63,183 nucleotides of DNA from Nitrospirota bacterium (GTDB lineage Bacteria > Nitrospirota > Thermodesulfovibrionia > UBA6902): assembly GCA_016234115.1 (NCBI GenBank), contig JACRHD010000029.1, positions 1 to 63,183 on the forward strand, read 5' to 3'. Each line of letters opens with the position of its first letter. Position 1 is the stretch's first letter. The notes under the pieces were generated by a model. The model saw only the letters and a program-made list of their open reading frames with translations, was not told the origin of the DNA and did not search any database. The position numbers and the translations under genes were made by a program. Shown here in pieces: positions 40,046-63,183 of the stretch.

Positions 40046-40385
40046 TTGGGGTCAAACCTTCAAAATTCATTTATCATCCTCTCAGACAAACGGTTTATAT
40101 CTTCATTTTATGTTCGCTTTCGGTGTTTCAATCAAAAGGTGATAATGGTTATCCATCAATGCATATGCATGAAGAAGATATCCATATCCGTCTTTCGTCC
40201 TCTGCAATATTTCTAAAAACTTCTCCTTGTCCCTTGCCTTGAAAAATGTTTTTCCCCTCAAATTTCCCCTTGAGGTTATATGATAAAAAGCCTCTTCAAA
40301 CTCTACTCTCGGTTGTCTTGCCATGTCCCTTTCTTTTTCCCCTTTCCAACCTCTTCATAAATGACTTCTGAAGGTTTGACCCCAA
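40046..40385 (-). mobile_element. Deletion derivative of the Y1 (REP-type) transposase element
   Basis: TTGGGGTCAAACCTTC (40046-40061) and its complement GAAGGTTTGACCCCAA (40370-40385) bound a 340-bp element. The outer 40-60 bp of each end match the full-length copy at 40898-42090. An internal deletion joins codons after KANI directly to the last codons of the transposase, so only ends and the gene's beginning remain. It could be moved in trans by an intact transposase. Confidence 0.88.
40103..40324 (-). pseudogene. Truncated REP-associated tyrosine transposase
   Basis: The first 73 residues start MARQPRVEFEEAFYHITSRG and include the HUH-type pair in MDNHYHLLIETPKANI. The frame then ends because of the internal deletion, so the catalytic Tyr and the C-terminal DNA-binding domain are lost. 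It is about 85 percent identical in this part to the intact copy at 40912-41889. Confidence 0.85.
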
Positions 40386-40897
40386 TCTATTCCTGGACTT
40401 CAATTTCAGGTCGACCTGGTCGGAGCTCAGCTTGTTCGGGGTGGTAGCCCCGGCGAATGCTGCGCCGGACGACGAGGCAATCCTTGATGAAGCAACTCTA
40501 AAGCAGTTTAATCCAGCGTTCAACGGGATCGGCAGTGGAGAGATTGAGATTCTGGTCCAGCGTAGCCTGTTTTATGATCCATTTGTCTACATGCCGCCTG
40601 ATGTGACGGCGAACAATTGGATTCCTAACGTCGGTTTGCCTACGACGTACGGCATTCCCGGCCTTGAAGTGATCTTTAAATACATTGATACAATCGACCC
40701 GATCACCGGCTTACTGGTCCAGGGTGAGGAACTGATTGAGGCTGCCGTCGGTTTCACTGACACTCAGTTCAGATTCACAGTGGACCAGACCCCGGAGGCA
40801 CAGTTCCTGATTCCAAACATGTTTAATGATTATTGGGGAGATGGCGTTGTGAAAAGTTCGCTACCGAACTGTCCCATGTATTATGCAGCTGTGACCA
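40386..40897 (+). pseudogene. Unidentified gene fragment trapped between two transposase elements
   Basis: An open frame runs through the entire 512-bp segment without its own start or stop. It can be read as LFLDFNFRSTWSEL...GVVAPANAAPDDEAILDEA...and ends near CPMYYAAVTI before running into the next element. The encoded piece (about 170 residues) is rich in acidic, Pro and aromatic residues and looks like part of a secreted or periplasmic protein. No family is recognised. Both ends are cut exactly at the terminal repeats of the flanking elements, so this is an internal piece of a larger gene carried or split by transposition. Confidence 0.6.
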
Positions 40898-42090
40898 TTG
40901 GGGTCAAACCTTCAAAAATCATTTATCATCCTCTCTGACAGAAGGTTGACATCCTCTTTCAATCCCTTATCTTTCATCATCCTTCCTTCCAATTTTTTTA
41001 TTACTCCGCTAACCGCCGGCCCTTTGACTCCAAAAAAACTTCCTATTTCCTTGTTTGTCTTTTTATCACTTAGAAGCTTCATTAAATAGATTGCGATTTG
41101 CCTTTCTATTTTCCCCTTGCCGCGTCTAAGTAAATCCTCTTCCGAAATCCCATAGTGCCTGCAACAGGATTTTATTACTTTTTCGTCCGGGACTTCTTTT
41201 CTTAATCTCCTGATTTGCGGCAACTCATCGTCAGCAGTATCCTTCCCTAATAAATTTGTTATCTTTTCTTTAAATCCATCACTGCCAAGAACAAGTCCTG
41301 ATTCCAAGTCCTCAAATGGGTCCTTCACTCCTTCTATGCCCGATTCTACAAATAAATTATAAGCTTTTACCGCATCATCCCTTCTCTCTGAAAAACATCT
41401 CAAAGTGTCCGCTGTGGTAACGATATCATGTCCTGTCTTATCAGATGTGCCGTTGATATATGTCCGGTAACTTGTCCATTGAAACTGCTCAGGTCTCTGC
41501 ACTATCTTTGCCCTTACCGGATTTAAGTGAATGTATCTGTTCAACGTCACCAGATATGCGTCCTTATCCACTATGATCCCCTTGAATCTGCCCTGAAACA
41601 GATGACCGCTTCTTTGATACTTCCTGTTGATGTACACTGTATAGCTCGTATTTATGTTCTGCATTACCCGCGATATGTTCGCTTTCGGTGTCTCAACTAA
41701 GAGATGATAATGGTTATCCATCAAAGCATACGCATGGAGACGATATCCGTATCTGTCTTTTGTCCTCTTTAATATTTCCAGAAACTTTTCCCTGTCTCTT
41801 GCTTTAAAGAATATTTTCCCCCTTAAATTTCCCCTTGAGGTTATGTGGTAAAATGCCCCGTCAAACTCTATTCTCAATTGCCTTGCCATGTCCCCTGTAA
41901 GCCCATCCTTTCTATTTAATCATTTTGAAAACCTCAAATTAATAAAGCACGACGTCCAACAATCATCGCACCTTCTCCCCGCCATAAATGAAGAAATAAT
42001 AAAGTTGTCAAAGAACAAGTTACAGCCTATTTATGTAAGTCTAATTTCTTCTCTTACATCCAAAACTGACTTCTGAAGGTTTGACCCCAA
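40898..42090 (-). mobile_element. Full-length Y1 (REP-associated) transposase element with terminal inverted repeats
   Basis: The element runs from TTGGGGTCAAACCTTC (40898-40913) to GAAGGTTTGACCCCAA (42075-42090). It carries one transposase gene on the minus strand. Its last coding base pairs overlap the left terminal repeat. It lies seven bases after the stop codon of khpA. Terminal inverted repeats of 16 bp are unusual for Y1 transposases, which normally use subterminal hairpins. Confidence 0.88.
40912..41889 (-). CDS. REP-associated tyrosine transposase (TnpA-REP, Y1/HUH family)
   Basis: This single-strand DNA transposase moves or copies short hairpin elements. The 325 residues start MARQLRIEFDGAFYHITSRG. 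They have the HUH motif MDNHYHLLVETPKANI (about residue 60) and the catalytic Tyr in LNRYIHLNPVRAKIV (about 118). A C-terminal DnaA-like helix-turn-helix (about 235-300, with HYGISEEDLLRRGKGKIERQ) recognises DNA. The gene is intact and is the likely source of the related elements in this window. The last codons (about LLSERMINDF) overlap the terminal repeat. Confidence 0.93.
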   Translation of the reverse strand: MARQLRIEFDGAFYHITSRGNLRGKIFFKARDREKFLEILKRTKDRYGYRLHAYALMDNHYHLLVETPKANISRVMQNINTSYTVYINRKYQRSGHLFQGRFKGIIVDKDAYLVTLNRYIHLNPVRAKIVQRPEQFQWTSYRTYINGTSDKTGHDIVTTADTLRCFSERRDDAVKAYNLFVESGIEGVKDPFEDLESGLVLGSDGFKEKITNLLGKDTADDELPQIRRLRKEVPDEKVIKSCCRHYGISEEDLLRRGKGKIERQIAIYLMKLLSDKKTNKEIGSFFGVKGPAVSGVIKKLEGRMMKDKGLKEDVNLLSERMINDF

Positions 42091-62944: not shown

Positions 62945-63055
62945 TGGGGTCAAACCTTCAAAATTCATTTATCATCCTCTCTGACAGAAAGGTTCAATGT
63001 TTTTTCCTAATCACTGCCTTTAACCCGCAATTCAAAATGACATTTGAAGGTTTGA
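62945..63055. mobile_element. Short remnant of the Y1 transposase element (both ends, no gene)
   Basis: The left end TGGGGTCAAACCTTC and the following 35 bp match the elements at 40046 and 40898. About 55 bp further, GAAGGTTTGA (63046-63055) is the partner end, cut before the final CCCC. Only about 110 bp remain and no transposase is encoded. The break point at 63055 is where the IS110-type element begins, so it looks interrupted there. Confidence 0.8.
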
Positions 63056-63150
63056 TAATCATATAAAGGCACCCCCTATAGATATCAGAATCAATGAATC
63101 TGATATCTTATAGGCAACCAAAACATAAACCTTTTAATAGGAGGTGCCTC
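63056..63150 (+). promoter_or_regulatory. Structured 5' region of an IS110-type element, enclosing the ribosome-binding site
   Basis: An outer stem pairs AGGCACCCCCTAT (63067-63079) with ATAGGAGGTGCCT (63137-63149; one mismatch). Inside it is a hairpin AGATATCAGAATC (63080-63092)/GAATCTGATATCT (63096-63108) with an AAT loop. The AGGAGG of the ribosome-binding site (63139-63144) lies in the outer stem, six bases before the ATG at 63151. It could limit translation, and the region is where IS110 family members encode their guide (bridge) RNA. Confidence 0.7.
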
Positions 63151-63183
63151 ATGAGATTGTACACAGGATTCGATCTTCATTCA
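63151..63183 (+). CDS. IS110 family transposase (partial, N-terminus only)
   Basis: Only the first 11 residues (MRLYTGFDLHS) lie in the window. The start MxLYxGxDLHS is typical of IS110 family transposases, where the Asp is the first of the DEDD catalytic residues of the RuvC-like domain. The gene continues beyond the window. AGGAGG precedes the ATG and lies in a stem (see preceding entry). Confidence 0.8.
   Translation, partial: MRLYTGFDLHS

Follow-up and report, generated by a model that had tools for sequence, protein, structure and literature searches.

TIR-flanked Y1 transposases

RAYT-like genes that are flanked by terminal inverted repeats (TIRs) were named TIRYTs or TIRtrons by Di Nocera et al. 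in 2013 (PMC3733652). Their TIR families are moderately repeated, often occur as dimers or close inverted pairs, and show the motif GGGGWSAS in the majority of TIRYTs, though not in all. Quentin et al. (2018, PMC6006769) assigned most TIRYTs to TnpA_REP subclass 2.1, whose members harbor a C-terminal helix-turn-helix extension (Bac_DnaA_C, HTH_23 or HTH_28) and no REPs. Among the papers covered by a full-text search, no further one uses the term TIRYT or TIRtron. TIRYTs are known almost only from these two surveys, and their mobility had been left open.

The window analyzed here, a stretch of 63,183 nucleotides from a Nitrospirota bacterium, contains two Y1 elements in the same orientation with 512 bp between them. 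We consider it probable (roughly 0.85) that element 2 represents a TIRYT-type transposon that is autonomous and mobilizes deleted and miniature copies, and that both elements and the intervening fragment were gained between livH and a KH-protein gene. The TIRYT kind is already known and the result is incremental; this genome contributes unusually good evidence for past movement, namely deletion scars common to different copies, families of miniatures, and the absence of the unit from a congener. The scar-sharing deletion derivatives and the empty congener locus go beyond the published TIRYTs, and the genome also supplies defined TIRYT ends. An earlier note on this DNA had held TIRs to be unusual for a REP-type Y1 transposase, but a subclass with TIRs was described in 2013 and 2018 (PMC3733652, PMC6006769). 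Its characterization of such enzymes as single-copy, domesticated and without TIRs fits RAYTs, not the TIRYT subclass.

Organization of the element pair and its ends

The layout in the window sequence bears out the arrangement proposed in that note, a complete element and a deleted copy with clean inverted ends around an open stretch of 512 bp (Table 1). Exact GGGGTCAAACCTTC is present at 4/4 ends of the two elements, which share 221 nt of the common coding part at 85% identity as well as both ends. In the genome of 3.5 Mb (69 contigs) the 14-mer end has 14 exact matches and GGGTCAAACCTTCA has 18 matches with at most one mismatch, whereas the controls, a reversed pattern in the case of the 14-mer, gave 0 in both searches. 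This shows that the ends are not due to chance. The proposed TIR of 16 bp can be refined: the constant end runs from GGGG to CCCC, and the two outer bases, TT/AA here, differ among copies (AT/AT, AA/TT). The repeat is a constant core of 14 bp plus two variable outer bases, within an imperfect repeat of 24-30 bp. The G+C content of element 2 is 39.7%, compared to 50.7% for the window and 50.8% for the fragment. No target duplication was seen at the outer flanks of the pair (GGTT|AACA).

Table 1. Positions of the Y1 elements, the intervening fragment and associated features in the window.
Feature	Position	Strand	Remarks
Element 1, deletion derivative	40046..40385	-	340 bp; both ends and first 72 transposase codons kept
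Element 1, outer end (transposase-downstream)	40046..40061	+	
Element 1, truncated transposase reading frame	40103..40324	-	73 aa
Element 1, inner end (transposase-upstream)	40370..40385	-	
Gene fragment, 512 bp	40386..40897	+	single open frame, 170 codons from 40387; flush with both element ends
Element 2, complete Y1 element	40898..42090	-	1193 bp; constant ends at 40900 and 42088; GGGGTCAAACCTTC at both ends
Element 2, inner end (transposase-downstream)	40898..40913	+	
Transposase gene, intact	40912..41889	-	325 aa; Y1_Tnp and Bac_DnaA_C-like C-terminal helix-turn-helix
Element 2, outer end (transposase-upstream)	42075..42090	-	
MITE-B copy near window end	62945..63055	-	far TIR broken after GAAGGTTTGA by IS110-like element
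IS110-like element, left end	63056..63183	+	inserted in MITE-B end; runs off contig

The transposase and its relatives

The transposase of element 2, the only full-length copy in the genome, matches Y1_Tnp (Pfam E-value 4.5e-17) and, with its C-terminus, Bac_DnaA_C (4.9e-8; 33.3 bits at a cut-off of 31.5). With the NCBI model for REP-associated tyrosine transposases (NF047646, REP_Tyr_transpos) it scores 79.7 bits, 0.3 below the cut-off of 80. The HUH motif is H60-Y-H62, the catalytic-type Tyr119 lies within YIHLNPVRA, and all three residues (H60, H62 and Y119) are unchanged across 13 aligned sequences. Enzymes of this family use the tyrosine to cut and religate one strand at the two ends, and they generate no target duplication.

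Homologues occur in Nitrospirota, Scalindua, Deltaproteobacteria and further groups, the nearest named relative being from a Thermodesulfovibrionia MAG (73-74%), which makes this the probable class of the host. Relatives from the three named groups that are 57-74% identical have nearly the same TIR. Enzymes of at least 57% identity have ends that are nearly all GGGTCA[AG]ACCTTCA (L064 differs slightly), those at 48-51% have GGGTCAAACCTA(C/A)A, and near 40-45% identity GGGGTCAG continues with other letters; in distant relatives GGGGTCA is retained and the continuation differs. Ends and enzyme thus show parallel divergence, as recognition of the ends by the enzyme would predict. Y1 transposases encoded elsewhere in the genome (C48, C59, C51 and C8) are without such ends of their own. 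The enzyme of element 2, which joins a Y1 HUH domain to a DnaA-like tail for DNA binding, would act on the matched ends GGGGTCAAACCTTC.

Like TIRYTs, the element has a RAYT-related Y1 HUH transposase with a catalytic tyrosine, and its gene lies between long TIRs rather than GTAG REPs. GGGGTCAA agrees with GGGGWSAS at 7/8 positions, the last consensus base being A here; the Scalindua relative (58% identical) has GGGTCAG. The Bac_DnaA_C extension and the lack of REP-like repeats are shared with TnpA_REP subclass 2.1, which is likely identical with TIRYT, and an assignment to subgroup 2.1.2 is suggested by the DnaA_C domain. With the RAYT/REPIN system (Nunvar 2010, PMC2817692; Bertels and Rainey 2011, PMC3116915) the element has in common a related transposase and short nonautonomous inverted-pair elements, but its repeats are TIRs and not GTAG-tagged REP hairpins, its 11 places amount to a low copy number, and the enzyme gene itself looks mobile. 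Y1 chemistry and the expected absence of target duplication are as in IS200/IS605, whereas those elements have subterminal hairpins and no TIRs, in contrast to the exact TIR of 14 bp found here.

Deleted and miniature copies

Ends of the GGGGTCAAACCTTC type are present at 11 places in the genome: the two window elements, a copy of 72 bp on C1, one of 209 bp on C56, five MITE-B copies and two copies on C37. The MITE-B copies are near-identical and lie in five contexts, on C69 (114 bp), C8, C11 (at 62945 of the window), C55 and C60. A second miniature family, MITE-D, has two copies, and the two on C37 are of a miniature type other than MITE-B. Being short, non-coding and present in several copies with the TIRs of the autonomous element and unrelated flanks, the miniature copies fit a MITE of a TIRYT.

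Element 1 and the C56 copy have a common upstream end and a common internal junction (...CGAACATAAAATGAAGA/ATAAACCG...), and 207/212 aligned bases are identical (97.6%); C56 has lost an additional stretch between two ATAACC repeats. The flanks of the two copies are unrelated. A common scar in unrelated flanks indicates that the deletion derivative was copied to new places. Together with the miniature families this substantiates the suggestion of a mobile element with a MITE-like deletion derivative, and past mobility is well supported by these comparisons. Spread of the derivative would need a transposase acting in trans, and the common scars in unrelated flanks suggest that the enzyme mobilizes deleted and miniature copies in this way. 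No empty site was found for C56, whose two flanks match separate places in relatives.

A pattern search detected miniature elements with such ends in 28/249 relatives, with 0 in the control. Miniature TIRYT-type elements are widespread among the phylum genomes, which contain up to 7 copies each by one strict pattern (e.g. G020, G148 and G199), and outside the 2013 survey such phylum-wide miniatures are apparently undescribed. The copy of 72 bp forms a near-perfect hairpin (z = -8), while single ends fold no better than shuffles (z = -1.0 and -0.2).

GCAT adjoins the same end in all five MITE-B copies (C8, C11, C55, C60 and C69), which suggests that this subfamily either prefers such a flank or has ends that extend further. 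As a general rule a fixed 5' target GCAT was rejected, as it is absent beside the non-MITE-B copies. In the five copies of this genome for which both flanks can be read, the dinucleotide outside GGGG on one side of the element is complementary to that on the other. A match at positions -2 to -4 was found in 64/52/52% of 44 full elements, compared to about 30% expected, whereas a set of 49 copies, mostly miniature, matches at the first outer base only (57% vs 29%); in both sets the rows are related, so that p-values are optimistic. Palindromic target sites were set aside as an explanation, because families share the first outer base and a TIR that is longer by 1-2 bases is the simpler reading.

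Acquisition of the elements and the fragment

The elements and the fragment are located between livH and the KH-protein gene. A query with joined flanks aligns in order to a genome of the same genus, G002 (query 1-963, 79%, junction at 700). In G002, a spacer of about 37 bp separates livH from the KH gene, and the whole 2.04 kb is absent. In the congeners G004 and G007, livH directly adjoins the downstream genes thiE/accC and the fragment is likewise absent. Since congeners have the flanking genes side by side and no fragment between them, both elements and the fragment are gains in the host lineage, and would have arrived after its split from these congeners. About 30 bp of the spacer are not alignable between G002 and the window, and the insertion points are thus approximate. 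Where the element would be, this spacer (L177 about 1750-1786, G002:C29) has a palindrome of 22 bp, GCAGGGTCAGACCTGACCCTGC, which resembles two TIR ends back to back and is possibly a footprint or remnant, a target or a terminator.

The fragment is open over 170 codons in one frame, with neither a start nor a stop of its own. Its G+C content at the three codon positions (0.55/0.38/0.60) is of the coding type, and only 28/20,000 shuffles gave an equally open stretch. At the DNA level, no match to a donor was found in the genome itself and 61 relatives, and at the protein level none in 396 genomes of the phylum, where two weak matches of 19-21 bits were ignored. Searches of IMG/VR, plasmids, phages, Pfam, PHROGs, NCBIfam and the PDB also returned no match. 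From the gene order in the congeners we conclude that the fragment is a gain and not a split native gene. Of the suggestion that the element pair had moved a gene fragment, the foreign origin of the fragment at this locus therefore stands, while neither a donor nor a second composite was found. The gain at the livH-KH locus could have occurred by successive events trimming adjacent DNA or as a single unit via the outermost ends.

Under the first of these, to which we give somewhat less than even odds, a foreign gene arrived first, and two independent insertions with adjacent deletions then left its middle 512 bp. Such a course is consistent with the state of other copies. On C1 (G000:C1:112954-113549), the gene for a tungstate-type binding protein ends no more than a few bases away from the TIR of the 72-bp copy. 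The congener protein (L235), which matches Pfam PBP_like_2, extends about 100 residues past this break, so about 100 C-terminal codons were lost. We take the truncated gene to be tupA. Its truncation indicates that insertion is not always clean. An Rhs-type frame on C69 and another Y1 gene near 62945 also break at or near an element, and insertion beside lost DNA thus seems common. However, at least three events would be required at a single intergenic site, and the phylum sample contains no homologue of the fragment.

Alternatively, elements 1 and 2 may have acted as a composite transposon and moved the fragment as a passenger via their outermost ends, to which we give only slightly lower odds. 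Any matched end pair on one strand might serve for this. The two elements have the same orientation, the fragment directly abuts both, G002 lacks the entire unit, and the outer flanks (GGTT|AACA) show no duplication, all of which agrees with a single transposition. Against this, the genome holds no second copy of the unit, no donor gene was found, and the inner flanks are equally explained by stepwise insertion and deletion.

An old duplication at this site, or the splitting of a native gene, might be suggested by the proximity and homology of elements 1 and 2, but is very improbable, since livH adjoins the downstream genes without the fragment in G002, G004 and G007, and element 1 is 97.6% identical to the C56 copy, far more than the 85% that it shares with element 2 in the common coding part.

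That TIRYTs in general form an active mobile class, with miniatures spread in trans, carried coding DNA, one-sided erosion of genes by deletion where they insert, and landing sites for an IS110-type element guided to their TIRs, is an extension that we regard as rather unlikely.

An IS110-like element within the TIRs

At six copies, an element beginning with TAATCATATAAAGGCACCCCC is inserted directly after GAAGGTTTGA of the TIR. The sites are on C8, C11 (the window end), C55 and C60 and at both ends of C37, and the assembly breaks at each of them. The insertion is in the same end in the four MITE-B copies and in opposite ends in the two C37-type copies. As copy type and end differ, at least three independent insertions are implied; the four in MITE-B could go back to a single insertion that spread with the host element. 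The assembly contains only the first 118-128 bp of the inserted element, with a frame that starts MRLYTGFDLHS. From this N-terminal motif of 11 amino acids it looks like a member of the IS110 family; a related piece of 38 amino acids had no match in Pfam.

Members of the IS110/IS1111 group are characterized by a DEDD transposase and a bridge/seek RNA. They select their targets, REPs included, by guide RNA (PMC11208160, PMC11187229), and ISPpu9 inserts in REPs (PMC8450116). Compared with these REP-targeting elements (PMC11208160, PMC11187229), the position here is likewise fixed within a repeated, palindromic mobile end, in six copies, but the target is a TIR of the TIRYT family and only part of the IS was assembled. 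Through such recurrent insertion at one TIR position, the known targeting of REPs by the IS110 family would widen to TIRYT ends. Guide-RNA targeting of these ends by the IS110-like element is possible.
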